From contig ML133383.1 in assembly GCA_003864495.1 (NCBI GenBank), positions 8,354,880 to 8,418,879 on the forward strand: a DNA stretch of 64,000 nucleotides. The letters are read 5' to 3'. Origin of the DNA: Nemopilema nomurai (Eukaryota; Cnidaria; Scyphozoa; Rhizostomeae; Rhizostomatidae). The notes below the pieces were generated by a model that saw only the letters and a list, made by a program, of their open reading frames with translations, was not told the origin of the DNA and made no database searches. This document shows positions 18,372-60,780 of the stretch, in pieces (the first letter of the stretch is position 1; each line of letters starts with the position of its first letter). The translations under genes were made by a program, and so were the position numbers.

Positions 18372-18468
18372 ATGTACGCATTGACATCGGATGTGAATCT
18401 TCCGAAGCCATGGATAATACTGGCGAAATTCTACGTACTGTTGGCTGCACTTGTGGCATTGGCATCCG
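18372..18468 (+). other. Gene 2 exon 1: signal peptide
   Basis: The ATG at 18372 opens a frame with a hydrophobic core (WIILAKFYVLLAALVALAS) and a small-residue cleavage site ALASA. The exon ends GCATCCG|GTAGGG in phase 1 and joins exactly to the MANSC exon at 20091. Nearby ATGs are in other frames. Confidence 0.82.
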
Positions 18469-21400
18469 GTAGGGAAAATAGTTTTATTTCCGGCCTCGTA
18501 TATCCTAGCGTGTATGTGCTAAGACCGACCTGTGATCGTACCATATCCAGCCTATACGCGCCTGGATATTATGGTCCCTGGATTAATTTCAGCATATGGT
18601 GCTAAAGTACCTCGATGTTTTGTCGATAATTTTCACTCAATCTTGCAAAATCCAACATATAGTTGTTTATAAGACGCATTCTTTTTTCAGCTGTGAGGTA
18701 TACTAGGCGAACTAGGGAAACTATAAGTCAATTTTGCTAATATAAATCTCTCTAGTATTCTAGAAAGCAAGAATTTTCACCTTAGTGATCGTTAACCTCG
18801 GAGAGTGTAACCTCGTCCTTGTTTTGATTTAGAGCGCATGAAAAGGTCGGGTTCATTGTATTAACCGGTCACTCACAAGTAATCCTCGCGTGAGTATTGG
18901 AAACGTGGAATCATAAATTGTAGCACAAACTACCGTAGGTTTGACGTCTACAAATCCGGTTTCATCCATCCACAATATTATTTTTATGAGTCGTAGAATC
19001 GACAAAAGAAGTCTAGGGTTTAAAGATGGATACAGAGAATATTTTTACCCCCTCTATAGGCGCTCTGATTTGACTGATATAAGTCAAAAGCTCTCATGAA
19101 ACTGATCATCGTATTGTCAGTGGCTGGGGAATTTATTATTGTTTCATTCAAACGATGGGATTCCTACCAAGAATCAATCTAATGAACCTAAAGAAGGTGC
19201 TTACATATTTGATTTTTTCCACCTACAAGCTGTGGAATCATCTGCTTCTACTTTCTCAAGTACCATTCTCCCATTCTCTCCTTCTAAGACTGGATGAAGT
19301 GATCGGAAGCCATGTTTTTAAGCAGAGTATCCACCACTCGATCCACATGCTTCTGTCCTCAGTCTTGTCTAGGCCACATGCCCGGGCGATAATGGATACC
19401 AGTCTGTTTATCTTCATCTTTTTGTGAGTTCTCTACTTTCCAACCGGCTTGAAGCGTCGCTGTATTTGATCGTTGGCTCCAGCCTTCACTTTCAGCACTT
19501 TGTATAATACAGTTTTAAATCATGCTATCATCACTGTATAAACACCACTTGTTCAATCAGCATAGCATATAATTTGCTAGTCTGCTTGTTACATTTTGCT
19601 GTCAGTTCTCTGATCAAGTTGCATTGATATCAGTGAAGCGTTCATCTGTATATTCCACTAGTGTAGCAGTATTATTTTATGTATCAGATGTGAAAATTTA
19701 GCAGTTAGTTACATTGTAATATATGTTTATATTAGTATGTATATTATTTCAATTAGTACCTGTAAGTGTAGTGGATGCTTGTTTTACTTTATTGTAGCTC
19801 TCTAATACTATATTGTAGCTATATTACGAGTTAAAGCTATCGATTATTACGTGAATTAAGCACTGTTTGATGCTAAAAATTTCATAACCAATAATGTTAT
19901 CCAATAATGTCGAATCTCATCTACCATTGTTATAATGTCCAAACTACCTTTTAAAATGATTTGATGACTAATTTGTAAATTTCGTTTTGAACTTGAGTGA
20001 CGAGCTTTGTCATTTGTGCTTCCTTCAATGAACTGATATTGCTGATTACTGAATGCTCCTGTTAACTGACTGCCTCTCTTCTCTTTGCAGCCTACCCACT
20101 ATATCCACACTCAAGGGAATGGGCGTGCAGTGCAGGAAATGTCATCTACAACGTCACTCTCCAAGGAGGCATACACGCAGGGAAGTTCAAGAAAGTAGGC
20201 CCTACCAGCGACATGAACGCCTGCTCTCAGTATTGTTGCGAGGATCGTCATTGCGATGTCGCGTTTATGGCGAAACAGAACTGTTACTTAGTAGGTTGCC
20301 TGTCGAAAAACCTTTGCAGGTCCGTTACGACTCTTTCACCGAAACTTTTCCCGCGTCTTGTTTACGTTACAAGGACGTATTTTCACGCGAATTCCAGGAC
20401 GATATCGAACGAAGCGCCGCTCGAAAAGGGTCTCCAGCAAGGTTCGTTTGGCGATGTTGCTGATGAACGCGAGAGTTTGCCCTCCGCCGGGTCAAAGGAC
20501 GTCGGAATGCCAAAGATACCCTTTAAAACTATCGATAACGTGGAGTCGAAGAATTTAAAAGAGAAGCTGAGATTGTACGCGGAGGGCTTAGATAGTTCGC
20601 GTGTTATCAAGAGCAGTTTAGGAACTAGTAATTTATCTACGCGGGGCCACGTACCCGTTGCGAACGAGGATGAATTGACGGTGTATGCGCAAGGGTGCTA
20701 TCCGGCGAAGGTACACAAGGACGTTTCGTTGCGTTACGGCACACATTCCGGCGAATTTTATGATTACGGGGAGATCGGAGACATTAGGATGTGCGTTGAC
20801 TTGTGCTGCAAGGACAAGAAATGTGACGTCGCTTTCATGGTGGGAAAGACTTGCTATACCATATCTTGTTCGAGCTTTGATTTCTGTCAAATGACGAAAG
20901 CGACCAAAGCACACAGTCTGACCACGCAGCTAGCGTATGTTGTGAAGAAGCGGAGCAGCGAAGGGAAGAAGAAGCTGATGATATCCAAAGACAACGAGAG
21001 GCTTCTTAGTCACCAAATCTCTACCAAATCGCACACCAAGATGCCTACCAAGATTTCTACCAAGTCTCATTCTTCGCTGCACCCACCGACTTCAAGGTTC
21101 TTGACTAGCGAACGACAAGATGTCGAAATCGGGACTCCGAAATCTGAGATATTCTCGTCTGAGGATAACATACCAAAGAAGTTCACAAAGGGATGTCGAA
21201 GTAACAAGATTCTCAGCGATTACGGTTTGATCGGCGGACAGCGTGCTGGCGTGTACACGCTTCGTGGAATAACCCCGAATTTTGATACTTGCATCGGACT
21301 GTGTTGTGCTGAAATGATGTGCGACGCTGCGTTTCTGCTGGGAAGGAGATGTTTTTCAGTGCAGTGCTTCAGAAACGGCGCATGCGCAGGGAGGCCGGCC

Positions 21401-24400
21401 ACGTCACATGGGCTGCGTTCTAAGCTTGCGTTTGTTGACCGGAAAGATGACGACATTGGCGAAAGTGAGTATCCCCATCATTCCATAAAACATGCAGTGT
21501 CTGGTTTTCTTTGATCGCTTCTGAGAGAATAGTTTTTAGCAAGTTTTGAGTTACAATTACATAACATCGCCTGCAAAAATTTAGCATTTTATTACTCTCA
21601 ATTTGCTGCATCAAAAACCCCTCTTTAGTTATCAGAAAAATGAGAATTGTTGTGAAGTTCGCGATTTGAAGTCTTGCTGTATTTCCTTAATATCTATGAG
21701 TGCCTTGAATATCCAAATAAAGGCTATTTTGGCAAGAAGCGGGAGAGCTTTTCTTGCACTCATCGATCCTTGGTCTTATTGATTCACGAATCCGTTTGGA
21801 GTATTAACATGAACCAGCTTTGTAATACCCTACTTTATTGCAATGGTTTTTAAGGTAGTGAAATGCTAATGGGAATTTCTTGTGATTTTTAGAGAGAGCA
21901 TCGATACCTGGTTTACTGCCAACGGGTAAGACTTTCTTTCAGTTGCTCGTAAGCTATCAATCACGTTTGGTCAGTCACTTATACAACTGCCACAACATGG
22001 ATTATGTAGCTGCCATCTGTGTAATGCAATTATATATTCTTTACCCTTGCCATTAATACTTCACTTCTTTTTCTTTTTCTGACTGTCTTTTGAAGTCACA
22101 CTGTAAATTCTTTGATATTAGCTAAGCATTTGGTGGCTTCAAATTTTGCTTTGCACAAACTGCCAATGCGACAAGTCATTCAGACCAAAGAAATTTCACT
22201 TAACAATTCGTCGCCATGTTTGCTCGTTTGTCATATCTTCACTACAAATGCTCACAGTAATTTCACTCTCTTACAGATCGTCAGTACACCGTACACTTGA
22301 ACATTACTAATGAAGATTTCAAGGAAGGTTTACGGGACCACGAATCTTTGGAGTTTCTCAACTTCGCACAAGCTGTTCGAGCCGCTGTTAGTATCTTGAA
22401 TAATATTTAGGCCATTGTCTCAGAATTTCTACTTTCTAAATACCAGTTCTACTAGACTTGAATTTCTACCTCAGGTAAATACTCCTTGAAAGTCATTTAA
22501 AGATGCCTAGCGACAAAGATACAATCAGGAGTAAATCATGTATCTGAAGTTGAACCTGCTTTTGATAGTATGTAAAGTGAGTTCTGCTGGTATCATCTAC
22601 AAGATGATGCAAAGCAGGTTTGCAGTATTGTACTTTTGAGTGCTGCAATGTGCTGCAATGCAATACAAAGTTGAGTAGCTGCTAAAGTGTGGTTAATTTC
22701 TTGATCTTTCTGTAAATCTGGTTCAGGGTTTGCTTGTTAAAGCAATGAAATCTCATGCATTGTTTTTAAAGACTTCTAATGCTTCTGTTAATTCCAAACA
22801 TAATGTTTTCGAATAGTTTCTAGAGTTCTTTGTATTTTGATATCTCGTTGTTCTTCTAATATATTTTTTCTGTGTTTTAGATTAGTGGGATACTTGGAAA
22901 TGTAGAGGGATTCAAAAATATCGAAATTTTGGCCTTCAGGTTTGTACTTCATGTCTCGGTCTTCCATTAGGATCTAGGATTAGGATTCTTTAGTTTTGTC
23001 AGTGAATTTAGCATCATTCGATAAGACTTTTTAAACTTTTGATAAACGTAGATGTGAAGAAAGATAAATTGAAAGTTTTTATAGATATAGCAGCGATTGC
23101 ATGTTGCAATAAGTATGCATGTTGGCTGGTTTCCCATTTTCATTATGTATCGAATCAAATTTGCAGGCCTAACAAAGTGATTGCCATCTTCAACATCACC
23201 ACTGACCAGGCCACCCACCCCAAAGTTCTGTTGCAGTTGATTGTCGATTCTCTGAGGAAAGGCGAGGTCAAAACATTTGACGAACCAGTGTCAGGGAAAC
23301 TCACGTTGGACGTCAGAGGGTTCAAGTTCCTCAACAACAAGGGTGAGTAGGGTTTTTAGGAGACCAGTCCAACATTTTAAGACTTAACAATGCCTTTAGA
23401 GGTTATTTATTCAGTATATTTGATCAACCGTTGTATTACCCTGATCATTTCCATTCTGACATTTACATGTTCACGAATGTTTGTGTATTTGCATTTTGGG
23501 TAATACAGCCCTTATATGATTCAAGTGACATTTGTAACATATCCAAAACCTTTGCATAAAGCTTCATCTACAGTATTCATTTTTTGTCCAATGTCTGCTT
23601 GCAATGTTTCAATGTAGCCTCATGTCTGATTACTAAAACGACCACGTTTTTTTCGACTAGAATGTTTCCCTCTCTAATATAAATTTTGTTATTGTTAAGC
23701 CTTCAAGTCGATCACTTACTACAACAACCGATAATCAAATGAATATATCTTATCATCAACCATTTTGCAGCATATGTTCAAATATAAACCAGATCATGTC
23801 TTACTAATTCAGCTCTACAAAGATTATAAAAAGTTTCTGCATTTATTTGAAATTGTCTTTTGATCTAAAAATTGCTATCAAAAGGGTAAGATACTGACAA
23901 TTCAAAGCGTTCCTTTCAAAGTTCTTCAATTGCTGTGAGAATGAATTCGTGTCCTAGATCCAATTGATTCGAAGCTGTTGTTTTGATTTTGAATTTGATG
24001 AGATCGTTCTGCTATTGATTCATGTCACTACCTTTCGCATCTAGGTGACAATCTGATCTGTCCACCTGAACACAACTATGACGCCCACTGGCCCCTGGCA
24101 ATATTCGGTACCTCTGTCAACATCCCTTGTCCACGTGACGCAAAAGGTGAGTCACGATTTGCATCCCTTATCTGAGTCCAGACAACGCTACGTTTTAACG
24201 CAGACTATTACTAAAGAAGGGTAACATTGATGCATTTTTTACGTAATTTTTATGGACTCTAATTCTGTTTTGTCATGGGTTAAAGTGGCTTTTTCTCCTT
24301 TTGATAATATTAAACAATTGATTTTAGATTTTTTTATTAACGTCACTGCGTCTTGTACAGTTCAACTTTTTTACTTGAACTTTCGTTTAGTAAAGTTATC

Positions 24401-27400
24401 AAAATAGTATTACTAGGTTTTATAACATCGCATACTTTTTCTGAAAAATTGTCAAAATTAATCATTATAAGCTGTGAATAAACTCTTCCCGTAGGCCTAT
24501 CCAACAGACGTTGCATCGGAAGTGAGGATCTTACTGCCAAATGGCAAGTGCCAGATTTTAGTGACTGCGTCTCTCAAAAATATGAAGATCTTTTCAAAGA
24601 AGTAAGTCCTCCTTTCCCATAATTTATGTTGTTTCTTTCCTATGATCTTATTTCTACCCCACTATGTACATGATTGCCATTTTTACTTAATTGGGATATA
24701 GTGACTGCATGATGTTTTTTTCACTATATTGGTATACTTCGTTAAAACGAAAACTTAACTTCTACAAATGATTCAGATGATGTTATGCACAGTTGAAAGC
24801 GGTACGGTGGTCTTTAATAGGGATGATGGTTTTATCGTGATATAGAGGACTTCAACTATGTTTTCTGCGGCAAGACTTTCAAGAACGTGTTTGTACGTTA
24901 ACATTTTGGTGGCCCTAGCTAAACAACAGTCTTTGTGCATAGTCAATTCTTCCACTGCTGCAGCCTGCACGCGATCTCGCGGTATTTGCTTCCTAGCTGC
25001 AGGTCCCAAGGCTATTCCACCATGTAGGGACCTAACGAAGTGTAAGATATGTCCTGTGCAGTGGACCATGTCGTTTGGTATGATTCCGATCCAACCGTAA
25101 AGTAGTTCACTGACTGGGCAGGCAAACCGACAAATGACAATTACCATATTGCAGCTTTATCGTCTGTGCGCTCCTCGAATACCTAGACCTGTTTCTATGA
25201 ATACCTAGGCCTTTTATGTTTAAAATGTTTCTTCAATCGGATGGTTGGAAATGTTTGAAATATTTTAACCCCAGGTCTTCTCTTTGAAAAAGACCGTTGC
25301 TCTCTAAAGATAGTTTGAAATACGCCATGTTTGAAATAATCTGAAAAAGTTCCCGTCTTTGAGCCATGAAGTTGGAAATGAGAATCCAGTAATGTAGATT
25401 TTAAGAAGTTTAACGATTAAATCCGACATTTTTAGTTCAGCTGCAAAAAAGTCACACTTGTCTATAATTATGATTTTTATAAACGCGTAGGTACGGTATT
25501 AATTTATTATCCTAATTAGCGACATTGAAGAGGCTATTTGAAGTTTGAGAATGAGTACTTCGAAAGTGACATGATCAAAGTTTATAAGACGATTTTGTAC
25601 CCTGTATGAGTGAGGTTTTCATGTTGTTGTCTGGCTTTTTCGTAGGCCCAGCTTCTAAACTCGGCCTCGGTGCACTCGCCCGAGCTAACGCCCGCGTCCG
25701 TAATCGACCGCGTTTTACAGCTCATCACGACAGACACCTACGGCTCCAACCCCCCAGCCCCCAGGAGCAGTGCCCGGTCCACTTTTCATCATCACCACTT
25801 CAGAACGAATGACATTCACCAAGATCCGAGCAGCCTAGGAAGCTTGCATACCCCGGAGATCGAGGAATTTCGAAAGCTTGTCGCAGAGCGGCGAAACCAC
25901 GAGAAAAAGCAGCAAAAGGTCGCGAAACCCGCGAAACAGAAGCCGAAAGCATCCATAAACTTGGTGTCTTTCTTCAGAGGACCTACGGCAAAGTTGGTTA
26001 AGACGGAGCCACTTTCTCAAATAAAGCCTCATAGTGATGATATTAAAATAACGAGTGTCAGCTTTACCCCCAATTCTAAGCAGGTTTCCGGTCCTAACCC
26101 GCCGGCAGCTCAAGCTCCTAATAAAATCTTTGGCCAAAATGAAGCCCCGCAAATGTCACCAGGGGTTAAAGGCCAAGACCCCACCAAGCGACGTCTCATG
26201 CATCCTTTCGATTCTCGACCCAAGCCGTCCTCGATTTTGCCAGCGCAAAGGTCGCCTCCGTTTCAAAACGAACAAGCTACGCAGCCCCAGTCAAACGAAC
26301 AGGAATATAACCAGGGCGCCCTCCAGAGTCCTCCCCCGGCACCCCTACAGCCACCGATGCAACAAGGTATTCTACGTAATATCGACAGGACATACAGCCA
26401 AGACCTTCGCAAGTTCAACGGCAACCCGAAAGTCGATCCGACACTGCTTCTCTCTCAAGGCTACTGGAGCCGGCAGCAGAAGTATCACCCGCAAACGAGG
26501 TCAGTGCCTTTGCAGCATCAAGACGTCACTGGCGGGGTGTATCCTACATTCTCATTGCCGATGGGTGTCAACCAAGGGCAGCGAGAGGTCAACTGGTCAT
26601 TCCAAGGAAACAAGCTGGCAAGCAGCGATCGAACGCCAACCGAGAGATCGTTCCTACCGGGCGCTGCCGGTCAGGTCAACCAACCGGCGTTGCGACTCGT
26701 CCAGGCGCCGGAACTTACGTTATCGTATGACCGGAATGAGCGCAAGTCAGTACCGAGTCAGGACCAGTATTTTATCGGGCCCAGAACAGCAACCAACCAG
26801 CTAAACCACAATGTTAATGAAAGAAACTTCGGTTATGAATCCGTGAATCCTGCAGTCTATGGGAATATGCAGCCGCTCAATGAAAACAGGGTTGTTAATG
26901 CAAATGGAAAGAACTATGTTGTCAGTATAAGGAAAAGGAGGTCAGTCAATGATGGCGGGAGTGACGGGTCAGTTACATCGCCAGATGTTTACAGTGCAGC
27001 AAGTTTGGGTGTCTTAGCAGAAAATGTTACAAAGCGAGAAGCAATTGGTGATTATCGAAAAGCCGAGGATAAAGATTATCAGGACAATCTTTTGGAGTCG
27101 CTTACAAATGACGAGTCAGACGGAGAGAGCCTAGACCAGCTGGGTCAGTTTCAACGTCCGAGTTCAAGGGCTTACAAGGCCGTCCCCGGCTTGAGGCTCT
27201 CTGGCACGGCTGTGGCCACGGAGGCAAAAGGGCCTTCATTGTCAGCAAGCACTAAAAGCACCCTGAGTAAAGTGAAGGACCCTTTTAGGTTAATAGAGAA
27301 AGCGAGGTACCGACCAAATGACGATTCAGGTGCTGTTAGGCCCGTTGTTGTGAACCTTCCTCTTGTAAATGGCGACGGAGTGTCAGAGAGTGCTGCGCCG

Positions 27401-30400
27401 CAGCGAATTGCTGGCTTGAAGAATCCTGTAGTGCTGACCGCTGATGGAAGCTCAAACAACGAAGAGCAGTCATACACTCGGACTGGCGCCCAACAAGGAA
27501 CGCTGCTCGACCTGGATAATAGCAGGATGAATCTTCCTGATCCGAGAGAAACCTCAAGTTACACTGAAGCGCACGTCGACAATCCAAAGATCAATGCTGT
27601 CGCAAGTGCCAAGATTCTCCACGGCGACAATCCGAACAGTGATGGCAAAACGTCTACGAATATTGAAATCACGGGGGGTGTTGAAGGGGGGCCTGCGAGT
27701 GGACCCGCGAGTGGACCCGCTGCACAGCCTGGAGAATCGACCACTGCACAAGAGCCTCCACCTGAAGAGCCAAATGCTGTCGATGCACAAAAAGAAAACA
27801 GTCAATCGACCGAGACTAAGCCAGAAGCTCCCGATTCGAACATGAAAGGTCCGATTTTTAATCCGATATTTCTTGATCTTCCTATTGATAGGGATTTTGT
27901 TTTAGAATGAAACTTCTTCTGTATTCATGTGGACTTACAATACCACTTCCAAATAAACGACAAAGTACGTCTTCCAAAAAGACAGCACTTACCAAACTCC
28001 ATATCAAATCAACATAAGGACATCGTTGATATTATAGACATGCCTTTGTGCTATGGATGAAAATTGATTAATTCATTGATACGCATTCGTGACTTTTCAT
28101 TTTTGTACTTGAAGGCGCGAAACGTTAGATAAGTGACATTTAGCTTTTAAAAACGTTTCAGCAAAGTAGGAAATATGCTGATAAACAACCGTTGAATGCA
28201 TGACATCTCCCTCTATTTTCATGATTTCATTTTCTATTTCAGGTAATGAACAGAAGGTTGTCGAGGAGCCCCGAATTTCCGTTGAAGATGAGAAGAAAAT
28301 TGAGCAAAAAGTGCCTGAAAATGGAGAAGATGTCCCTAATGTGCCCCTTGAGAATAGGAATGACACTGCTGATGACATGATATCGAATGGACAGGGCGAT
28401 CAGGATCAGGAGGTACCGCTGGTTACTCTTAAGAAGCTGACGGTTAATGAAACTGAAGAGAACGCGCACAAATTCGCGGGCAAGACGCATGATTCTGAGA
28501 GAATCTTCACATTCGAGAAAGAGCACGGTGCCAACAGAGCAGCGATGTTCGGAGGAGATATTTTATTATCAGCAGATATATTTGAGGAATTGTCCAACTA
28601 CATGCAGATTCAGACGGAGGCTCCTAGTCCTCAAGAAATCAAGGCATGTGACTATCTTTCTTTACAGAAATATTATGAGACGTGTCAATTCTAGAGTTTG
28701 AGAAAGAGAATATTCAGAAAATAGGAGAATATGGATCTATCAGTTATCCAATATTTAAAGTATTGTTAAAAGGCTTGTTGTTTTCCCAAACCTTTGAATT
28801 TCCTCAGTTGATTAATCTTGAGATTATCAGCTGTTGCGTTTTCTAAAATTTTGAAGAGTAGGCTTACTTGCCATGATATTGCAATTGTTTGGTCGCTATG
28901 ATTAAACCAATAACTCCATGTTCATTGAAAGCTACACATTTTTCCTGTTTTTCAGTATGCGCGCGAATTTGTTTTAATTCTCTGTTTCTTTTTGAAGGAA
29001 TTCATCGAGGCAGCGAGTAGTCTATTAGATGAAAAGAATGCCCAAGAATGGAAGAATGCACAACGGGTACGCTCTATACCCTTCAAATGACAATTTCGAA
29101 CTCATCCTTGCGATCACGGCAAAAATGGCCTTCATGTTTATCAAAATCAATAAAGATTTAATTGAGGAATTTTTAGTAAAGAAAACTTTATGAAATTTTG
29201 TTGGTAAAATTCAGAAAGCAATCAGCTATTAAAAAACAAATTGAATTTGTTTAATCTTAATTTATAATATTAAAGCACCAATGCATTTAACGAATGATTG
29301 ATCACAAATTTTATAGCCAAGCAGTTCGCTTTGTTCCAAAATCTCATGAGTTTTGCTTACATTACTCTTACAGCATCTCAAGGTCGTAGCAAATGAAGGC
29401 GAATTAAGCCAAGGGGATATTGATGTCCAAGACTGGAAATCGCTTCGTAAAATGCAGGTACGTCGATCATAATCATGCGATGGTTCAATATTCAGTTATT
29501 TGACACATCAAGCAAGGGTGCATTTTGTGCGCATTTTCACACGTTTTATCAAGCTTATTCCACGTTCATTTCACTTAGTTGTGGCTCGAACGAAATTGCG
29601 CACCTTCTTCAAGTAGAATTTGTCCGCGGAAGTATATTTTTCCTTTTGAACAGAAGGCAAGGGCTAATAAGCTTCATTATACCAACAACGTGCATTTTTC
29701 CAAATATCGACCACTATTAGTGCTAATTATAAGAATCATTCTGGTTTGAATCTTTTTAAAGCTGTGCTGAGAATAAGTACTATCCTTCGTAATTCGCTAA
29801 GTTTTTAATCAACTTTTCTCTCGCAGAGCAAGAGGAAACCAAATGTGCTGCTGGAATTCATTGATGACGTCGAAGAATATGGCAAAGCGGCGTCCAAAAT
29901 GATCACCAAATATAACTCTGTCTTCCAGAAGCCGATTATCACACCCAATATCAGTACGTTTTCAGCACTTCTTTCCAAAACAGCAACTTGAGCAACTATC
30001 TAAAGACAGAGTCTTCTTCACCTGAATCAAGTTTATCCTGAAACCACACGATAGTTTTATTTTTCTTAATTCAATTCGAATAATAATTGTCTTTTTGTTC
30101 AGATAACAATAATGATATTTGGTCATGAAAACAGAATGATTTATTTTCAAGATTATTTAATGTTTAGTGCTGCAAATTTTTTCAATAGTACTGGTTATAA
30201 CTGGGTTTGTTTTTCCTAGCATTTTAAAAACTTTCAAGGATTTCAATAAGCTTTCAAATGTTTCTGATTAAATTTATGTTTCTTACATTGCCTCTCCCCT
30301 GTTTTCATGATTTACAATGCTTTTGTAACATCATATGTTTTATGCCCTTTATTATGGTACTTTATTTCCTCATACCTTAAGCTGGCAAAATATTATTCAG

Positions 30401-37815: not shown

Positions 37816-37821
37816 AATAAA
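37816..37821 (+). terminator. Polyadenylation signal AATAAA, gene 2
   Basis: Canonical hexamer about 655 bases after the gene 2 stop codon, followed by an A-run. It is the first exact AATAAA in the flank. Confidence 0.5.
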
Positions 37822-40296: not shown

Positions 40297-40375
40297 ATGG
40301 AGAAGAAATATGGAAAATCGTGGATGCATAGAACATTTCGATTTTGGACTGCAACATTTGTTGTGATTTTAGTCG
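40297..40375 (+). other. Gene 3 exon 1: signal peptide
   Basis: The ATG at 40297 gives MEKKYGKSWMHRTFRFW followed by TATFVVILVG. It ends GTCG|GTAAG in phase 1 and joins 42785 to read VGSFAVDG. An upstream ATG at 40284 is out of frame and soon stops. The hydrophobic core is short but typical in its position and charge pattern. Confidence 0.72.
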
Positions 40376-49300: not shown

Positions 49301-52300
49301 AGATTGGGAAAAAACCACTGGCAAAGCTGAACGACTTTTTCAATAAGGTCGACGGTCAACCACCCAAGAAACCTTCAGGTAATCTTTCATTGCAGCTCAA
49401 TCAAATCTTTCTCATACCAGCTAGGAAAATGCAGTAAAAAAAGTAAACTAATGCTCAAAAAATGCTCACGAAAGCAACAGCTAAACAATACACGAAGTTG
49501 AAACCGGGAGCATATCAATGGTGATTCAAGAACGGGAATCTTGAAGAAGTGGGGGATTAGTTATTAGTAAAAGATATAATTGTGATTAGAACAGAAGCCA
49601 AGGATAGAATTTTGCTTGGTGAAAAGCTTTGCATTTCCTTAAGGCAAACCGTGCCATTATGATTTTTTACTAAAAACTTTATAGTTATCGACCAGGTTGG
49701 CTATGCAAGCCTGATAGGAATTTTCCTTTAGTGCCTGAAAATATCCCTAAAAACATTTAATACAAGATTAATTATATTTTGTTAATTTATTAGAATTGAA
49801 AATAAGATTCAAGAATACCTTTTTCCTTGACACAGGAAAAGCAGCAACAAAGGCTTTACTGAAACCAACCATTCCGAAGAAAAAGGTTCCAGAATCAACA
49901 GCACCCATTGCACCGAAAGGAAAGCCAGGTAGGTCATTAATTATCCAAAAATAACTCAAAAGAACAGCATACTTTAAAGAGATCACAGCCTGATTTAGCT
50001 CTTCTCCAAAACATGTTCTTCCAGGAGATCATGTAGTTTGTGCTGTTGAGGTTAATGCTAAAGACTTTAGAAGTAATTAATGGTCTTGCATTCCGATTAA
50101 CCCTTTTTCATAAATAGAGCTTCAAAAAGCTATGCAATCTAAGCTTAGTTAAATGAAGGGAAACAGTGGTTGGGGATACGAAATACCCATAATGGATGCC
50201 GGCCAATTTTTGTTGTTTTCTCAAACGCCTCTTACTGGGGTAGAGGCTACTCACCGCAGAATCTTGCCGCGAAATTCAACATAAAGAGTTAGGTCTGACG
50301 CATCTGAAGTCTATGACTTTTGTGTGTATTGTACCTCATTAACTGTAACTGTGGTGTTGTTTCTTCTTGGGATTCAAAAGACGATATGGTAATCAATTAA
50401 GACTACTAAAACAGTTTCAAAGGAAGTGATGCTCGAGCTTCGGATATCTTCGATTCTCGAGAATTTATTGGACTGTTGACCCGATGTAGCCCTCTGTACA
50501 ACGCGTAACATTTCATTTTAAATCAAAATCTTTATTAGAGAATTATACGGTGGACTAATCCATACGGTGGTTTCTTTATTGACAGAAGCTAATTCATGCC
50601 CTGTACGGCAAAATTTGGAAAACATGGTTCTTGCGAAAGGGAGGAAGTCAGGGGAGTTTACCAGGATGCAAGGTTACCCCACTCTTGATACTTGCATCAA
50701 ACAATGCTGCAAAACACCAACTTGTGACCTTCTCTTCAAATCAGGCGAGGTACTCAATTAATCAAATCTTCGAATCTGTAATGCTAATATAAACAGTTAG
50801 ACCATTTTTTAAATTTTCTGTGTTTTTGATTGTTTCTTAACCAGTTTCAATTTAAATAAATATCTAAGTAAGAATAAACAAGCCCAAACATACTATTTCA
50901 TCAGTTTTGTAATTTTTCGCTTTTTGAAGGTCTGCTACTTGGTGCATTGCCATAACCTTGAATCCTGCAAAACTGAACCACTGAAAGAGCCAACAATAAG
51001 GACAAGAATTGTCTTTGTGAAGAAGCCTGAAGTTGCTCCACAAGGAGGTACATCATGCATAATTATGATCATTATATTAAAGGCAGAATGATTGATGATA
51101 TTCACAAGTAAATAATTTGCTGACAAGGATGACAAAGAAAATAGTTGAGGGTCATTTAACAAGCCTTATGCAGAGCAATTGTCATAAGTATAAAACAAGC
51201 ACCTGAAAGCATTTATTTTTGCCAATTGACAATTTTTGACCCTCTTTGATAGTATTGGTTCTTTAAGATGAGTAAACCAAGGTCAGAGTGGTGAGAATAG
51301 AAAATTTAAATCAATTATTTTCTTATATTTGTTGAGAAAGATTGACATTCTTTATAGCCTTAAAGTGTCATTACTCCTGTTTGGCTTTTGTAAGGTTTTC
51401 ATGTTGCATGATTTTTTGCTTAGATTTATAGGTAATGTATACCTTTTTACAGGTAAACCAGCTATCTGCCCAGGTGAAAATGCATTTGGAATTTTGTGGA
51501 AGGAAACAAAACCTGGACATTTTGCTACTCGTACATGCCCAAGGGAAGCAAAAGGTATGAAATTGATTGCTGTAGGGTTAAACTAAGATATGAGATTATA
51601 ATGGTGTCAGATTCCTCTTTCTATAATAACAGTTGCACTAAAAACTGCTGTGAATATACTCCAGCCTATTCATACTAAAGCTCTTTGAATGGATGTTGAC
51701 TTAATGAGTTAGTGTAAGTCACCTGAATAATTTTCTCTGATTATTTCTCTTTGATCAAATCTGTGTTTACTGAGATACTTATTGAGTGCATGATTATAGG
51801 TTTTGCCAAAAGACATTGCAATGACCATTCACGCTGGCTGATGCCTGATTTCAGTAGCTGTGTATCAGATCAGTATACCAATCTTGATGAAGAGGTAGGC
51901 ATTCCTTCACTTCAAATATGGCAAATGGCTTGATAAGCTAAAAGGTTCTTTAAGGATGTTTGTCCAGAAACCATTAAGTTATATGGATAAAGAAAATATT
52001 CAAAATGTGTGTCACCCATCTTAAAATGAGCCTTGGGAAAACCCGGTGCCCATAGAGCACCTGCAACAGGGAACTTGGTACGAATAAAACAGGGAGGAGG
52101 TAATAATAACCAATAGTCTCAATTGAAAAACCTTTGGCAATCATCAAATCATTTTTCTGATGCAAAAAATAAAGTTTTCTAAATGTTGATGTCATGGGAG
52201 ACAACTTGAGCCTTTCCTGTTTATATTTTTCTTGTGGATTCCCGAAAATTTCTTTGCATCTTTGTGTAGGTAAAGCACCTTGGATTCACGATCAATGTCA

Positions 52301-55300
52301 AAGATGTTCTTGCCAAGCTTGAGGAAATTACAACTCAGACAATTGACAATTCAATGATATTTGGTGGAGATATCATTAAGGCATCTAGCATTTTGGATGA
52401 AGTTTCCAAATTTGTTGTTAAAAATAGTGCCGAGAGATTCGGATTTGGCGCTCTACGGGTAAGGCATTCAACTGAATTTGTATTACAACTATAATGTGTA
52501 ATCGCAAAACAATCACCACCTTATAGTGGTCATTGCTAAATATTGTGCTAGACATTTTAAAAAGAGGAATCTTGAGCCTTACTTGGTACTAACTAGTGTG
52601 TTGGTCATTTTTAGAACTTCGCTCGATCCGCTAGCAATCTGATTGATGATACCAATAAACAGGAATGGGAAAATGTCAATCGCGTAAGTAGATTTACCAT
52701 TTCCGCGTGTGCTCAAACCTTCATTTGGGGTTTTATGTATATGTTTCCTTCTGAAGCAAGGCAACAGAGTTTGTGATTTTCTATATGAAAATCTTGCGTG
52801 TTCATAAAAAATGTTACATATGAAAATTAGGACATCTCTATATATTTATTCTCCGCCATCAATTTTCGTGATAAAAAGCCAGCCCAGTTTTGTTTCCTTT
52901 ATCCTCAACACGTTTTCTGCCTACAAACCGTCTACATATTTCCTTTTTGATACAGTCACTAAAAGGACCTGGAAAAATAATGAGAGCTCTTGAAAATTTT
53001 GGTGCAATGACGGCTGGGAAGATACCTCCGATAAACAACAATCAACCGATCATCACACACAACATGGGTAATTCAGTAATTCAAATTGCGATTTATTTGC
53101 ATCTAGCGTTTTAATGATTAATGATTGATGATACTTACTTACTGTCTGTGAATTATTGCATCGGGGATTCAGGTCTGTATTTCCATTCTCCATAACGGCG
53201 ATCTTTCTTATCAAAGAGTTCCTGCGTAGTTTCAAAGAAGCTTAAACTAATTTAATGATTTTTTCAACTTCATTTTCAGTCATGTCTGTCGCGCGACTTT
53301 CCAAAATTCAGAAGTACGTCTTTCCAAACTACAGTGTGCCTTTGCTCAAGAGATGGACAACTAAAAAGGACCAGATTATTTTGCCTGGACACTTGTTCAA
53401 AGGCGGTGAGTATCCGGTCGTTGGGTCACGTGTTCCGCAGTTTATGGTTGCGCAATGCTGTATACGCCCTCGAAAGTCTCCCTCCCCATAAACAACATTA
53501 CGAATTTAGAGCGTTTGAGATCAAAGTTTGACCTTGTCTTGATTTTTTGTAGAAAATTTCTGTAACATTTCTATACAGTATTTTGAAAAATGCTTTGATT
53601 TTAACTACTAGCAATACAAATAGATAGGCAGTAATAATCTTAAAAAATTGTTCCATAGGTTCTGTAAAGGTATCAAGTATCAACTACAAAAATTTAGCCC
53701 CCCTTCTTCCTCATCAATGGAATTCTAACAAGTAAGTATGCCAAAACCCTACTAGTTCCTTTGCTTTTAAATAGTCTTTATTGGATATCTTCATAATGCC
53801 GCTTGGAAAAGAATATCTAGCTTTTATATCTTTCTCTTCATATGAATCATGTACTGATTGGTATATCTTTAGAAGAACAAGAAGTTATGGGAAATTAATA
53901 AATGTAGCTTCCAGGTTGTTCCAAAGATGATTATGAAAAACTGTTTGGTCCAAAGCAAACACGTGTAGAAGGAAACTATTCCTTTGTTAACGTGAAGTAG
54001 CATCCAAAGAACAAAGAGATCTTGCATGTATTTTGAAGCCTGAAGAATCGTAACATGTTGAGTCCCGTCTACCTATAAGTGACTAAATGCAAATGCCCTT
54101 TTCATGCTTTTCTGTTCCTTATATCGACTCCTAGATCACACATCGTGTCCAGTTATGCTGATTCTCTTACCAGCGTCGTGTCTCTCCTTTCTTCCAGTCA
54201 TGTGACCTTCACAGATGGCTTTCGTGTGAATAGCAAAGTTATTGCCACCACGATTCGTCCAGAACCAACTAGGAAGATTGACCCGCCAGTAACAATCATA
54301 CTGCATCACTTAAAGGTACCCATTTTAGTAATAGACATGCGTCTTTTTTCGATTTCAACGAATCATATTCTGTTTGCTATGATGCAATTGTCTTATTCTA
54401 TATTCAGCTAGTGCCTACCAGTGAGACTATACGATGTTTAATGGTACAGAAATCTTCATCTTTGTAGAAAAGCTCGCTATGACTTGGTAGACCATGTTTC
54501 TGATGCATTTTTGTCTTCATTTTCTACTGCATAGCAGCTTTTTCTAGTCAGCAATAGAAACAGCTCGGCAGTGGTTATAATATAGAAAGCAAAAAGAGCT
54601 AGAGGAACTATATTTTTACATGGGTAAAAAATAGTTGTAAAATCTCTATGCTATGTAAAAATTGATATTCAGAATACATTGTTCATATATTGACTGAACT
54701 ACCATGCTCTGTTTGTTACGAAACCCTTTAAGAGTGAAAAATTTTATTCCCCAACTTTCATTTTAGAAAAGCAACTCTGCTAGAACGAAATGTGTCTATT
54801 GGGATTTTAACACAAAGTAAGTTGTTTAAAAAGTTGTAGTTGAAATTTGATAAAACTACATTCTAAATTAAACATCATGCTCATCTTTGATTTTCACAAA
54901 GCTGATAGAATGATATCGCTAGTTGTATAGTGGTATCCAATTTAGAGCATCACAAAATGTTTTAAAATGTCCACTGTCTCTGTTTTTGGCATTTGGAAGT
55001 CACAATGTTATTGGGGGATTTTACAGTTTCGATAAAGTTTTTGCAAGTGGAAGTGATTTATATTTATATAAAGAGGAGGAAACATGTCTCGGTTTAGGTT
55101 CCAAAGAATTTTCCGAAACTGAGAGTTTTAAGTGAGCTTGTCTCTTCATCTTTGTTTGAGAAGCAGTTGGTTGTGAATTGAATCTGTCGCTATGTTTCTG
55201 CTGTGGGTAGCTGGCATCCTACTTTTTATCATCTTACCATGGACCATTTACTTTCCACATAGCCCTTCAAATGGTGGAAGCTGGTCATCAAATGGATGCT

Positions 55301-58300
55301 GGGTGGTTACAAGCAACTCGACAGTGACTGTCTGTCAGTGTGAACATTTGACCCATTTCGCCGTCCTGATGAACCTTAGTGATGAAGATAGGGTGCGTAA
55401 AATCATCCTGCCATCTGCTATCAATGGCTTAATTCTGTTTCAAGGGTTCCTTAAAATAGTTGATTTGTATATTTGTGCCTACTCATCTGTTTGAATAAAG
55501 TCAATATTAAAGCTTGGTCGTTTTAGTTAAGAAATAAACCATGCGGATGTTTTAATTTCTGTGACATTTCCCGTCGTATCATGACACTTTTAGACCCTTG
55601 TGATTAGACCATTTTAAACGTCTGGTTGTCTGGTAGGAAACGCATATAACTCTTTGGTTATAATTATATACGCATAGGAATCTTTATTGCGGTTTCCATG
55701 GCATGTTTAGATTCAAAATTACAAAACTTTTTTTGAATTAAATTGTAAGCATATAAGTTATTCAGTGTGTTTTTGGCAAGCTCAGATCGCAGTGTATTTC
55801 CTGCCATGGAAATGATTCATACTCTGATTGACAGGTGTCAGCAAAAGAACAGGCCAAGGAGAACACGTTTGCTTTGATGTGGCTTGGCATCCCCGTGCTC
55901 GTAGTGCTCTCTGTCGGAGCTATGTATACTTGCTTTGCTTGGTAGGTGTGGCAACACGGTGTTAATCTTCTATCTATCTCTACAAATGTGCATCCCTATA
56001 TGATTTCATCAAGTGTAGCTAAGTTCAGAACAGTGTAATATTCCTATGTTGTCAGTGACGTTTCTCTCTATGAAAGTCAACTGAAAGTAGATTGTGAATA
56101 CTGAAGCAGTGGCTTTAGATGATGTATGTATACTAACCACAATAAAATGTAAATATTATTAGCAATAGCAATCTTCAATTCACAAGCACCATCTAGCAAT
56201 TAAGAGAATGATATTTTTATGTTCAATTAAGGAGTTTTCGTGGAGTTTTTTTTTCTTTAATGACGCACTCTGCGTATCAGAGATTCTCTTGTAAACTTCT
56301 TAATTTGAAATTTAATTTAATTTTGAAATATAGAATGTTAGTAAACCCATTTTATTTCAATATTTCACTTATCAGCGTATTGCCCTCTTTCAAAATGACG
56401 TGTTTTTCGCCTTAGGTCGAAAGCTCCAAGAAGACGTCACGTGGGTAAGTGTTTGGGTTTCTGCTACTCATTGCAATTTTCAAACAAGCATTTTTGCCAG
56501 AATAATTGTCAATGATATTAACCGAGAATACAGGGCTTTCTTTGATTTTATATACATTTGTGGCATTATTCTTAATACTTGCAGCTTCTGGCTCCTGATG
56601 TATAGATTAATATTTTCAAATAACTTTAACATAAATTGCTAATTCGCTATATATAGACAGGATCACACATTGGGACTTCGTAATGAAAATCTAATGCCCT
56701 TTATCATTCATTGTATGATCTTCTAGGGCAATCTTTTACGGTCGTTCCTCTGTTCTCTTTAGTTGTGAAGGATGGCAAGCCAAAGCTACCTGAAGACGAG
56801 GTTATTGTGACGAAAACTGTGAAGGAGGATTTCCCAGGCTCCCCTAACCGCTACCTGTACTCCTCCTATACGTCTCCGAGCCCTTCCGATTTAGAATGGG
56901 AACACGTGTGGGACTTTCTGACGAATTCAGAGTTTGAGAACTGGCAGTGCACGGAAAAGTTCAAAAGAAAACGACCCAGGAGGCGAAGGCTAGACCTGCG
57001 GCCTACCAGACTTCTGCGTGGGCGCAAGAAGAAGCTCAAAGACAATTTCGAAACAAGCGAGTATTTTTCGGAAGGGGACAGTTCTTCTACAAGGTGGAAG
57101 CACCAGGATGACAACGAGTGGTCCCGAGAGAGAATTAAATGTCGTGGCAAAGATGTGATCGACATCAGCAGTGAGGCATCCCAACCAGTTGATTCACTAG
57201 TAAGTGTTGCTCTTCAATTTCATAGTGTTGGAATTCAAGGGTAATGTATTGAACTACTAGCCTGATAAAGTGCTCCAGTTTAAGCAGTTGTGGGGACCCT
57301 AGCATTCCAAAAAAACCTCATAACTATTTTGACATCTTCTTATACGGAGCAAAATAAAGTCGTTGTGCAATTGTTGCTGTAGCTCAAATGCTTCTCTAAA
57401 CAGAAAGCAATACCTCAAGTGAATTCCGTCAGTTGAAGCATCTCTCTTTGTGAACAGTATTATATTGAATGCTGACATTACCAAATGGCTTGATTAGATT
57501 TGTAGTTTGCGCAATGATCCCTTTTGTGTGCCTTTGACTTTATGCTTTTTCAAGATATACCACTTCTTCCTCTTTTGCTTTTCTTTATGTATGTACCAGG
57601 TGAAAATTTCTCGTAGACTAAAACCTCACTTTTAAAATGTTGACTCTGTGTCTCTACTAGGAAGAATTTTCTGACGACACTTCGGTTGCTGATTCTAAAG
57701 ATGGCGACAAATGCAGCAATAGCTTTGACAACTTCGCACCAGACGCAGTTAGCTCGCCACACGCAGGGTACAACTCCGAGTCTAAATACTACAGCTTTGT
57801 TTATCGTTCGAATCTGAACTTGAAAGAACGGGAACAAATTCACCTCTCGTTCAACGCGGAAAGCAGACTTTCTAGCAAGCGGGAGCCCATGTATTCGTCA
57901 TGCTCGTCTCTTGAGACACTACACAGAATGCAGCCGTCCAGAATACAGAAGACAAAGTATGCATCGACTACCTGCCTCGTTACAATTGGGAGGAAAGGCA
58001 AAACGAGGCTTGGCGATCGCAAATGGAGCTCGAAAATTTCACTTGCGTCATCGGCAAGGACAGTCATGTCATCAGGGTTTTTGGACAAGACCTGGAGCTC
58101 TAAATACGCGTCCAGCTTGTCAATCAGCACACTGACTCGGTCAGTTTCTACAAAGACAATTAACGATGATATCGACTCATATCATTCTGGTTTCGAGAAT
58201 TCAGTTTGCGAGAACCTGTCCTCGGAGCAAGGTTACGGGACATTCGAATCTAGTGGCGCATTTAGCAACGACGTCATGGATATGAATATAACATCAAGTG

Positions 58301-60780
58301 ACACTGGCGTGGCAAATGATTGCGCTAGTACGTCAAATAGTTTGATAAGCACCAATGTACCAACCTATGACATGAATCTGCTGACACCGAGCAGAAAACC
58401 CACGGGAGTTACCGGGAAACCCCTAGAGTCATCCTCTTTCGACACCTCGTGGATGGATGATTTGGAAAAGGACATGGAAAACTTTGAAAGATTTCTGTGC
58501 GATGGCCCTCAAACTCCTGCTCTAGATCATGTCTTAAATGATTGGAGGGAACAGAGTAAAGCTTTTCTTGAAGATACCTTCATTATGAACATGGACCTTA
58601 TTGGTGAAAATAGATTACTCAGAGCGATTGATCCACTTCCAGACGCCAATAGAGTGGTGGAACAAAATTACTCTGAAGTGAAAGCTAAGGTAAAGGCATT
58701 GAGTCATTCTTCATTTGGATCGTCTTTAGAGGACCTTGGTATCGACATGCGGACCAGTAGCTTCGACGATACATCTTTAATACCTGCAAGCATCAAGTCC
58801 GTTGAAAAGCAGACTTTGACATTGTCCCAGCTCGAAATGAATTCAGTGGTTGAAAACTTTGGAGACATAGAGACCGAATCAGAGTATGAAACGAATATGT
58901 ATGATGCTGATCAGCGGAAAACACCCACCAAAGAAAGGCTAGCTACATCCAAAAGGGGCGGTCATCAAAATCGGATAGTCAGCATCCCACGAACATCTGC
59001 GATCAAAAAGAAGACAAGAGTTCTGAAAAAGAAAATTGAAAGGTCTCCAACGGTCGCCACAGGACTCAGTACCAGGTCCCCTACCAAGCACATGCGCAGT
59101 TACATCGTCTTGCGACAGCAGTCACGTTACACTGATAATGAAAGGCACATGGCCACTCTTGAAAGGCAAGAGAGCCTCTCTGGGAGTGAGAGTAGAAGCA
59201 TTAAGAGAGTGAATAGAACGGTTGCAAGGAAGGCTGCACGACATTTGACTGCAACTGACACGGTCGACAATAAGGAAGAGGAGCCGAGGCCTGAAGACAC
59301 TGCTCCATGCGGAAGCATCCACGCCTCGAGAGATGTGAGTGAATACGAAGAAGGCTCTACGAAGATAACTGTGGAAGATGAAGTCCAGGCCAGTGGGCTT
59401 GAGGAAGCCCTGACGCCGGGAGCGGTAGAGATTGCTGACAGAGAAGCTGAGGCTGAAGAGAAGGCAGACCTTGGCAATGAAGTTGACAACTGTCTTAAAA
59501 GTATCAAAGGAAAAGTAAGTAGATTTATTTTGTTTAAAGGTTTCGTTGGAATAGTGTCATTAAGTAGAGTCTTGCGCTAATACAGAATTCTTTCTCGTTT
59601 TCAGTATCTTCACATGTGGCACGAAGGCCGCAATGGTATTTCTTAATCAAATGAATGAGCTCCTAGATTACAAGGCCATCCGGCTTTGACCAAGATTTTA
59701 CGCTCGACAAAAACGTTCCTCTTCAACATATCAAGATATTTTCTCTCCCAAACGATCTGTAAAATAATGCCAAAATTTTCAAATTCCATGAGTGTCTTTC
59801 TTCTTCATGGTTTTTGACTTATCTCCCTTTTGTCACAGGGCTCCAAGGGCAAGGTGACGTTCAGTGGCGTTGATGACGTAACAATGACTGATGATGGTGA
59901 TGATTACATACGGAGGACTGTCGAATCAAGGTGAGTAAGGGTCAACATTGTACCAAGAGATCTCTTGCATACCGTAGAGGACGTTCCACGACCTATTGGT
60001 GGCTGCGGGTATGTTTGAAAGTCTCGTTGATTTAATAGTATTTTTGTTTTTGTGAGGATTTGAGGTTTCTGTGGAGGAGCCTTTGTAGCCCCACCGGACC
60101 ACTGCAAACCTATAATGAAACCTGTAGAGAGCTTAGTTGAACAACTGCCAGTCTACCCTGATGTACATGCCGTGTTCTGTTTATGGTCCATGTTGCCTAT
60201 GTTAATTGCTACCCTTAAAATCAAGCAAAACTAACATACAGAGTGTACTTGATATGGCGCAAGGGGTTATTTCGCCAATTACTTTCGTTTGTTGTTAATC
60301 CAGTCGGTGCAGAAATGCAACTTGTCGCAAAATGGTGGCAATTACATATTGCTATGGGGCAGTGGACTTTATCATAAAAAGCCCTTCACTTTTTCGAAAA
60401 AATAGAATCGTTGGAAAATTAAGCGAAAACAATTTGTTTCCATCAATATAAAGAAACTTGGAACCAAAACGTTTGACACATTCTATAGTGAAAATAATTT
60501 GTAAAGTATCAAAAGATTGTTGTTTCTATTAAACTAAAGTTAAATAGGAAAAATTAAGAAGAGATTATCCCAATGCATTGATGTTTTCAATAAACTTTTG
60601 AAGAACAAGTAAAACATTTCTAAATTGATCTAAAATTAAAATTTAATGAAGCTAATTTTTAACTGATAAGTTCTATAATTGACTATCTATAGCGTCTTTG
60701 GTTCAACTTTGAGAAGATGGAGAGGAAGATCAAGACTATATTCATTTCAACGTTCGGATAAAAGTTCGTTTAAAAATTGA
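40297..60780 (+). CDS. Gene 3: MANSC - giant Lys-rich proteoglycan-like - HRM - GAIN/GPS single-pass membrane protein
   Basis: Predicted cell-surface protein of 3,190 residues, paralogue of gene 2. Exons: 40297-40375, 42785-43282, 43796-44272, 44906-49378, 49836-49928, 50586-50749, 50930-51047, 51453-51554, 51800-51894, 52270-52458, 52615-52683, 52956-53067, 53280-53405, 53659-53731, 54198-54315, 54767-54816, 55263-55392, 55835-55941, 56416-56444, 56763-57199, 57661-59514, 59839-59930, 60693-60780. All phases close. Order: signal peptide, MANSC 1 and 2, low-complexity segment (352-1842), MANSC 3 (1874-1967), HRM (1968-2033), GAIN/GPS (2034-2322; cleavage after Leu2308), TM (about 2334-2358), tail of 832 residues. 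There is no SEA domain and no 7TM. The last exon and the first intron are the least certain parts. Confidence 0.85.
40376..42784 (+). other. Gene 3 intron 1
   Basis: 2.4 kb intron. Apart from a TTG microsatellite near its 3' end I see no feature. The open frames inside are short and unlike proteins. Confidence 0.7.
42110..42132 (+). repeat. (TTG)n microsatellite
   Basis: About seven to eight perfect TGT/TTG units inside intron 1 of gene 3. Ordinary simple repeat. Confidence 0.85.
42785..44272 (+). other. Gene 3 MANSC domains 1 and 2 with acidic linkers (exons 2-3)
   Basis: MANSC 1: EICKQQEE to CAELCCKDSRCTIPF and CYGIACVKKELC. MANSC 2: TSCSKDSNF to SCSRKCCKTDNCILSFIVE and CLGILCKGDGDC. Each has eight Cys in the same order as gene 2. 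Between them lie acidic stretches (DEEDEEE; EEDYDDSDEDDVDNEDD) and dibasic KR sites. In gene 3 each MANSC has its own exon, while gene 2 has all three in one. Confidence 0.83.
44906..49378 (+). other. Gene 3 exon 4: 1,491-residue low-complexity segment with GAG-type sites
   Basis: One uninterrupted 4,473-bp exon in phase with its neighbours. It is very rich in Lys, Glu, Ser and His. Parts in order: acidic start; Lys-rich blocks (KKEKKSKKRKKHSS); His-rich part at 45821-45972; coiled-coil-like helix EEKLIEKLEHLEEKIEKKQK; more Lys-rich blocks alternating with acidic Ser-Gly motifs; Thr-rich mucin-like stretch (TTKPTTTTQPVV) near 48100-48300; Pro/Gly/Gln-rich end with a KKPxxK tail. In a cytosolic protein this would look nuclear, but here it is downstream of a signal peptide and between disulfide-rich domains, so it is predicted to be extracellular. 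Confidence 0.82.
45262..47570 (+). other. Cluster of Ser-Gly glycosaminoglycan attachment-type motifs in gene 3
   Basis: At least six acidic Ser-Gly sites: EEEASGSGETE (45262), EMEGSGELTGSE (46609), VSGEGSS (46789), AISGEGSGEGREGSGS (about 47325-47370), HSEGSGNAE (47512) and EEGSGTHA (about 47554). Acidic residues beside SG or SGxG are the known context for xylosyltransferase. Addition of chains is inferred. Confidence 0.6.
50586..51047 (+). other. Gene 3 MANSC domain 3 (exons 6-7)
   Basis: Encodes NSCPVRQNLENMVLAKG, TCIKQCCKTPTCDLLFKSGE and, after a phase-0 intron, VCYLVHCHNLESC and RTRIVFVKKPE. The eight-Cys pattern and the terminal IVFVKK strand match the other MANSC units. The internal intron is unique to this copy. 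Confidence 0.82.
51453..51894 (+). other. Gene 3 HRM domain (exons 8-9)
   Basis: AICPGENAFGILWKETKPG, TCPREAKGFAKRHCND and WLMPDFSSCVSDQ carry the same CP, G-x-x-x-R-x-C and W-x-x-PDFS-x-C signature as gene 2. The first exon is 102 nt in both genes, with phase-1 introns on both sides. Confidence 0.85.
52270..55392 (+). other. Gene 3 GAIN domain and GPS (exons 10-17)
   Basis: FTINVKDVLAKLEEIT, MIFGGDIIKASSILDEVSKF, NFARSASNLIDDTNKQEWEN, YVFPNYSVPLLKRWTT, FTDGFRVNSKVIATTIRPEP and PPVTIILHHLK match gene 2 strand for strand. The GPS reads CVYWDFN, SWSSNGCWVV and CQCEHLTHFAVLMNL. The cut is expected at HL|T (55350/55351), exposing THFAVLM, which is very close to the tethered agonist consensus of adhesion GPCRs. 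The GPS is split by a phase-2 intron after the first Cys segment, as in gene 2. Confidence 0.88.
55835..55941 (+). other. Gene 3 single transmembrane helix (exon 18)
   Basis: VSAKEQAKENTFALMWLG and IPVLVVLSVGAMYTCFAW. About 25 residues after the predicted GPS cut, a spacing like that of adhesion GPCR TM1. The following exon is basic (SKAPRRRH), which fits an inner-face stop-transfer signal. No further hydrophobic segment follows in the tail exons. Confidence 0.85.
56763..59514 (+). other. Gene 3 cytoplasmic tail, main exons 20-21
   Basis: Two exons encoding about 760 residues, mostly disordered. Features: aromatic/acidic patch DLEWEHVWDFLTNSEFENW; a long basic cluster (KFKRKRPRRRRLDLRP, LLRGRKKKLKD); Ser/Thr-rich blocks; a SEQGYGTFESSG element; repeated SFDTSWMDDLEKDMENFE and SSLEDLGIDM acidic helices; an Arg-rich segment (KKKTRVLKKKIERSP); and an acidic end. 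No kinase, TIR or other catalytic domain seen. Confidence 0.8.
56951..57050 (+). other. Possible bipartite nuclear localisation signal in the gene 3 tail
   Basis: Two basic clusters, FKRKRPRRRR and RGRKKKLK, separated by about 11 residues, fit the bipartite NLS spacing. In a membrane protein this would matter only if the tail is released by intramembrane proteolysis. Confidence 0.4.
59605..59646 (+). other. Possible alternative terminal exon of gene 3
   Basis: TCGTTTTCAG precedes 13 codons (YLHMWHEGRNGIS) and a TAA. It is in frame if joined to exon 21 in phase 0. Skipping it to 59839 gives the longer main tail. Confidence 0.35.
59839..60780 (+). other. Gene 3 last two exons (59839-59930, 60693-60780)
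   Basis: The first reads GSKGKVTFSGVDDVTMTDDG and ends AATCAAG|GTGAG in phase 2. A matching exon after CTATCTATAG reads SVFGSTLRRWRGRSRLYSF and stops at TGA 60778-60780. Phase and the Arg/Ser style agree, but the 762-bp intron and the short last exon make this less sure. Confidence 0.6.

Follow-up and report, generated by a model that had tools for sequence, protein, structure and literature searches.

Two tandem genes of Nemopilema nomurai with an adhesion-GPCR-type ectodomain and a single predicted membrane helix

Most work on the GAIN domain concerns adhesion G-protein-coupled receptors (GPCRs) and polycystins, in which it makes the cut and holds the agonist. Polycystin-1/PKD1-like and REJ proteins carry a self-cleaving GAIN/GPS outside the adhesion GPCRs (PMC4810088), and the Drosophila Cirl 1TM isoform sets the latrophilin ectodomain on one transmembrane (TM) helix (PMC13197933), arising by intron retention from a seven-transmembrane (7TM) gene according to a title cited in that article. 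Human adhesion-GPCR transcript variants also yield membrane-anchored N termini, so that GAIN on fewer helices is already known as an isoform (PMC11039983). Here we describe two genes of the scyphozoan Nemopilema nomurai, gene 1 and gene 2, that lie in a 64,000-nucleotide stretch of DNA (GenBank assembly GCA_003864495.1, contig ML133383.1; G000:C19:8354880-8418879 in our numbering), referred to as the window, whose positions on the plus strand serve as coordinates below. The evidence supports an adhesion-GPCR-type ectodomain, with MANSC domains added, on one putative helix. We think it probable that the two genes, as tandem paralogues, encode dedicated adhesion receptors of the single-pass type that cleave themselves into two fragments and have no 7TM, the word 'receptor' being our guess at their function.

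One helix or seven behind the GPS

Exons were read from the sequence, and models were built from splice sites and reading phase. Gene 1 (18372-37161) and gene 2 (40297-60780) have 23 exons each with consistent phases, encode 2,349 and 3,211 amino acids, respectively, and end at stop codons; a sequence-only reading of this DNA had placed its limits at 18372 and 60780, where gene 1 has its start codon and gene 2 its stop codon. The two are tandem neighbours whose HRM and GAIN-GPS regions can be aligned with one another. In gene 1, a signal peptide is followed by three KIAA0319_N/MANSC domains, SEA, HRM, GAIN, GPS, a proline-rich stalk, one TM helix and a tail, and in gene 2 by two MANSC domains, a region rich in lysine and glutamate, a third MANSC domain, HRM, GAIN, GPS, one TM helix and a tail. 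The sequence-only reading had proposed an HRM-GAIN-GPS ectodomain with an intact HL|T cleavage site, N-terminal MANSC domains, and one helix with a long tail in place of 7TM, all of which was borne out: spliced pieces of both genes match the Pfam ectodomain families, HL|T is read at the GPS of both, three domains per gene match PF23597 (KIAA0319_N/MANSC; the first of gene 2 marginally), and the one helix agrees with hydropathy, with tblastn searches for 7TM and with two colinear relatives, P0004 and P0008. Beyond that reading, gene 1 was found to have SEA, a GAIN insert of ~800 residues, a 100-residue spacer between cut and helix, and a conserved basic site resembling a cleavage site.

When the final models were scanned for hydropathy, each gene showed one hydrophobic segment after the GPS, besides the signal peptide; as a control, the scan recovered all seven helices of zebrafish BAI3. 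The gene 1 helix, with a cysteine cluster, lies with the proline-rich stalk at 33221..33555 (hydropathy 3.91), and that of gene 2 at 55835..55941 (hydropathy 2.24; kept in P0004); among the relatives, the post-GPS count is one in P0004, one in P0008 and none in a third protein, P0007. The genome searched comprises 212.9 Mb in 226 contigs, and the tblastn queries for 7TM were three pieces of this genome's own receptor on contig C84 together with the 7TM region of zebrafish BAI3. As positive controls, these recovered 7TM regions at C56, C90, C127 and C62. Neither the window nor the 20 kb downstream gave these queries a convincing 7TM match (the best E values, 0.051 and 0.061, belong to opposite-strand matches), and C19, the contig of the window, has no 7tm_2 Pfam match; the downstream 7TM exons that the sequence-only reading had named as its counter-evidence are thus not convincingly present in this span, with the controls working.

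Behind the helix, each gene continues into a long putative cytoplasmic tail. That of gene 1 (33754..37161, four exons, stop at 37161) has ~410 residues and is rich in serine, proline and arginine, with 168 of 298 aligned residues identical in P0008. The gene 2 tail (56416..60780, five exons, stop at 60780) has ~830 residues and is colinear with P0004 to the C terminus, and no Pfam family reaches its cut-off in the main tail exon; within this tail, an exon start at 56727 was dropped for 56763, guided by the P0004 alignment.

The relatives bear directly on these joins. P0004 (886 residues, from a 2,936-base JGI contig) carries the end of GAIN, the GPS, TM and tail in one unbroken frame, and from the GAIN end, where its support for gene 2 begins, to the C terminus is identical to gene 2 at 278 of 812 aligned residues. 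Both remaining relatives are EukProt proteins: P0008 (2,284 residues) aligns with gene 1 from residue 1 into the tail, TM included, at 55% identity (1,172/2,125), and P0007 (2,395 residues), whose model lacks the TM, is 75% identical to gene 1 (1,719/2,283), the identities over the TM piece being 21/31 and 6/31, respectively. Because P0008 and P0004 keep the same order, the joins from GPS through TM to tail are supported in gene 1 and gene 2, respectively. Judged by its repetition in P0007 and P0008, the ectodomain architecture modelled for gene 1 is real, and the modelled GPS-TM-tail part of gene 2 is repeated in P0004. Three homologue searches were made, spanning a limited length range, and two of them scored only candidates sharing most words. 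Among the 16 proteins listed by one of these searches, precomputed Pfam lists give a GPS for P0007 and P0008 only. The named hits with the N-terminal domain in two of the searches are cnidarian (Pocillopora, Nematostella, Acropora, Actinia, Actinostola and Desmophyllum), and such lists give no GPS for them.

Exons and domains of the two genes

Exon 1 of gene 1 (18372..18468) holds the start codon and signal peptide, as indicated by its hydrophobic start and by P0008, which aligns from residue 1. Exon 2 (20091..21464) encodes the three N-terminal domains as three stretches that fit KIAA0319_N PF23597 (1.9e-32) better than MANEC PF07502 (5.4e-11) and have P0001, P0002 and P0003 as homologues; a small exon follows at 21893-21925. 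SEA, located via P0007 and P0008, both of which share the stretch, spans 22277..23342 (exons 22277-22386, 22881-22939 and 23167-23342; Pfam 2.1e-9). HRM was located by reading an inter-exon gap and spans 24045..24601 (exons 24045-24146 and 24495-24601; Pfam 7.2e-6; BAI2 structure 8OEK 3e-6).

The GAIN domain of gene 1 is interrupted by ~800 disordered residues, with a presumed first helix from residue 701 on and the remainder from residue 1516 on. The residue-701 segment is read as the first GAIN helix because it resembles gene 2; a PDB search with this piece matched HRM only, with no GAIN match. This presumed helix and most of the insert are encoded at 25646..27848, an exon that is phase-consistent, recurs in P0007 and P0008 and closes with a weak GT donor (gtccga). 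The insert end, the rest of GAIN and the GPS (CDHL|TIF) follow in nine exons at 28243..32672 (Pfam GAIN 2.9e-14, GPS 4.1e-12), and no Pfam family passes its cut-off in the long exons of the insert and tail. An extra 28-residue exon within GAIN (29374-29457), retained in P0007 and P0008, has a tryptophan motif resembling that of the preceding exon. The insert also contains a basic site, RKRR|S, the sole site of the searched pattern upstream of the GPS; P0007 has a matching site with the same flank, again the sole one before the GPS, and the sole such cluster of P0008 has this flank too. A furin-like cut is predicted at this conserved site.

Gene 2 begins with a candidate signal-peptide exon at 40297..40375 (donor TCG|gtaagt), the top-scoring phase-1 ATG exon within 37200-42784, which remains a candidate without homologue support. 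MANSC domains 1 and 2 occupy two exons at 42785..44272 (PF23597, 5.5e-6 and 1.2e-8), the first being marginal at 26.5 and 28.0 bits in two scans against a cut-off of 27. The region that follows, rich in lysine, glutamate, serine and histidine and presumably extracellular, is an open, phase-consistent frame at 44906..49928, made up of a 4.5-kb main exon (44906-49378; 1,491 residues, no Pfam family over its cut-off) and a small exon (49836-49928). Its reading as a proteoglycan was unsupported (14 Ser-Gly pairs against a shuffle mean of 9.9 and maximum of 20). The third MANSC domain (50586..51047, two exons; PF23597 1.7e-12 on the spliced piece), HRM (51453..51894, two exons; Pfam 1.4e-8), GAIN (52270..54816; Pfam 1e-22) and GPS (55263..55392, CEHL|THFAVLM; Pfam 7.9e-16) complete the ectodomain.

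All splice sites are GT-AG except for a GC donor that follows position 28643 of gene 1, and three further donors of this gene are weak (gtccga, gttagt and gtttgt); P0007 and P0008 read through all four of these junctions.

KIAA0319_N has 62 matches in the genome, 47 of which are packed into three arrays of 19, 19 and 9 matches on C1 (3.15-3.21 Mb), C77 (1.43-1.47 Mb) and C136 (1.81-1.83 Mb), some of them in open frames of up to 2,014 residues, and these contigs hold none of the GPS loci described below. Upstream of gene 1, exons at 3000-5100 resemble a phospholipase C beta C2 region.

Predicted cleavage, function and origin

Efficient GPS cleavage is reported to need, in addition to H-X-S/T, an aromatic S10.49 stacked on the histidine, and the glycine preceding the GPS cysteine is retained in cleaving receptors (PMC13062082). 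With S10.49 placed by back-counting from the BAI3 numbering of that article, all five family proteins (gene 1, gene 2, P0004, P0007 and P0008) have HL|T and Gly-Cys, and the S10.49 residue is phenylalanine in gene 1, P0007 and P0008 and tyrosine in gene 2 and P0004; zebrafish BAI3, with RV|S and leucine at S10.49, has only Gly-Cys in common with the family. Since all three determinants are conserved in all five proteins, autoproteolysis is predicted at the GPS of both genes. Cleavage of a GAIN domain on a single helix is possible because EMR2-1TM is cleavable (not quantified) and present at the surface (PMC12488864). In the same article, a spacer cut EMR2 cleavage from 45% to 10%, membrane distance lowering cleavage. 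The distance from cut to helix is 100 residues in gene 1 and 25 residues in gene 2, where it favours cleavage.

As single-pass receptors, the two proteins would work as follows. GAIN would cut itself at HL|T in the endoplasmic reticulum, and the long MANSC-(SEA)-HRM-GAIN fragment would stay non-covalently seated on a short fragment in which the Stachel strand is joined to one TM helix and the long tail. A ligand or pulling force would then unseat the outer fragment, and the protein may thereby serve as both mechanical fuse and switch, acting via its tail or partner proteins and not via a 7TM of its own.

The genome has at least 20 GPS loci; those found comprise 16 7TM loci, one PKD1-like locus, one doubtful locus and the two window genes. 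A 7tm_2 match lies within ~11 kb at 13 of them, and C56, C84 and C90 are 7TM by sequence reading and tblastn; counting non-7TM loci by Pfam alone was dropped, since these three proved 7TM. The one PKD1-like locus, on C61, combines GPS with PLAT. A dense array of PLAT matches lies on C9 (0.61-0.65 Mb), and the doubtful locus, C37:1512975-1513103 (L027), a degenerate GPS-like motif without the histidine, followed by a possible single TM, is perhaps another non-7TM GPS protein. With P0004 as query, the genome yielded nine matches, of which only gene 2 includes tail sequence past query residue 104; the weaker ones at C127, C62, C84, C60, C122 and C35 cover the GPS, and all of these but C62 extend over some or all of the TM region. 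In gene 1 and gene 2 alike, a phase-0 intron immediately follows the Stachel, and a phase-0 donor stands there at three of the four 7TM loci read (C127, where the acceptor was also seen, C62 and C90; none at C84). Most likely, the two genes arose from a BAI-like adhesion GPCR whose 7TM half was replaced at this intron, such an exchange of the membrane half being the simplest route.

An alternative that we consider unlikely is that the products are partner subunits like the Cirl 1TM isoform, pairing through the ectodomain with a 7TM adhesion GPCR that does the signalling: the 1TM and 7TM forms of Cirl appear to heterodimerise extracellularly and to signal through G-alpha-o (PMC13197933), and the 16 7TM loci are possible partners. 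Against this, the long tails can be aligned with those of relatives at the identities given above for P0004 and P0008, which suggests that the tail has a function of its own. The same tails, together with the strict retention of the cleavage residues, speak against a structural adhesion protein that does not signal and uses GAIN only as a folded stalk, or as a joint that shears off, in matrix or glycocalyx. Such a protein, which we hold to be quite improbable, would fit the very long extracellular regions that match no Pfam family and the KIAA0319_N/MANSC arrays on other contigs. Improbable too, in our view, is a new, non-GPCR family in which GAIN is a tension fuse cut twice, by itself at HL|T and by a furin-like protease in a gene 1-type insert; the intact Stachel, left on a 100-residue proline-rich rod once the outer part is unseated, could then act in trans, as agonist or as decoy, on 7TM adhesion GPCRs nearby. 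That these are incomplete or decayed 7TM genes, with 7TM exons lost, misassembled or too distant, is very improbable: Pfam did miss weak 7TM exons at C56, C84 and C90, and some loci with GPS and TM1 weakly match P0004 into its TM region, but in both genes the GPS is followed at once by TM and tail exons that keep a consistent phase and end in a stop codon, P0004 and P0008 have the same order, and nothing convincingly 7TM-like lies within 20 kb downstream.

Several points also weigh against the two genes as self-cleaving, single-pass receptors. Both models are drawn from genomic DNA of this animal, the P0004 contig may be RNA or DNA, and the P0007 model has no TM segment and repeats part of its tail; this missing helix is taken as a model fault, with an isoform possible. 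The HRM of gene 1 is near its Pfam cut-off (26.8 bits against 26.2, and only 24.5 bits for a longer piece). The GAIN domain of gene 1 stands 100 residues from the membrane, which argues for less cleavage, and flexible flap regions also matter for cleavage (PMC13062082).

If the single-pass receptor reading is right, self-cleavage and fragment release would have a use even in a chain that lacks a tethered-agonist pocket. Together, the two genes would offer a natural way to test GAIN function independent of 7TM and the role of membrane distance (25 versus 100 residues), and gene 1 a way to test how disordered inserts affect the GAIN fold.

Comparison with known systems

In line with the sequence-only reading, which knew of no named family of this architecture, we found no description of MANSC-HRM-GAIN-GPS with one TM in the open-access PMC literature, as far as excerpts cover it, including those of PMC12716839, PMC13197933, PMC12488864, PMC4890752, PMC11039983, PMC4302439 and PMC13062082. 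Excerpts on non-GPCR eukaryotic proteins with GAIN or HRM likewise do not describe HRM and GAIN on one TM with MANSC. Polycystin-1 has 11 TM helices and PLAT, in contrast to the one TM of the window genes and the lack of any PLAT match on C19.

At the N terminus, the window genes resemble KIAA0319 and KIAA0319L (AAVR), which have a KIAA0319_N/MANSC N-terminal domain and a single TM. This domain is common to both window genes (1.9e-32 in gene 1; 1.7e-12 for the third domain of gene 2). KIAA0319L has PKD domains, whereas Pfam finds no PKD repeats in full-length P0007 and P0008 or in the exons scanned, and we know of no GAIN/GPS in KIAA0319L. Some adhesion GPCRs, ADGRG6 and ADGRF among them, have SEA ahead of GAIN as gene 1 does; these receptors are 7TM, however, and to our knowledge lack MANSC.

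The HRM-GAIN part of both genes is closest to BAI/ADGRB by sequence comparison, with HRM-GAIN-GPS in common. The closest solved structures are BAI3 4DLO (5.9e-35) and BAI2 8OEK (1.1e-24) for gene 2 and BAI2 8OEK (7.5e-12, over the GAIN region) for gene 1. BAI has seven TM helices and thrombospondin repeats (as in the Pfam list of P0005), whereas the window genes have one TM and MANSC domains, and Pfam finds no thrombospondin repeats either in P0007 and P0008 or in the scanned exons and spliced pieces (all but a few small exons). The cleavage sites differ as well, HL|T with an aromatic S10.49 in the window genes contrasting with RV|S and leucine in zebrafish BAI3.

The nearest precedent is the Cirl 1TM isoform, which shares with the window genes an ectodomain on a single helix. 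A 7TM form from the same gene, as in Cirl, has no convincing match at this locus; the window genes, with no 7TM exons found there, instead have tails of their own and other N-terminal domains, and the GAIN cutting module thus appears to have been put to new use, on a single helix, as a receptor in its own right.

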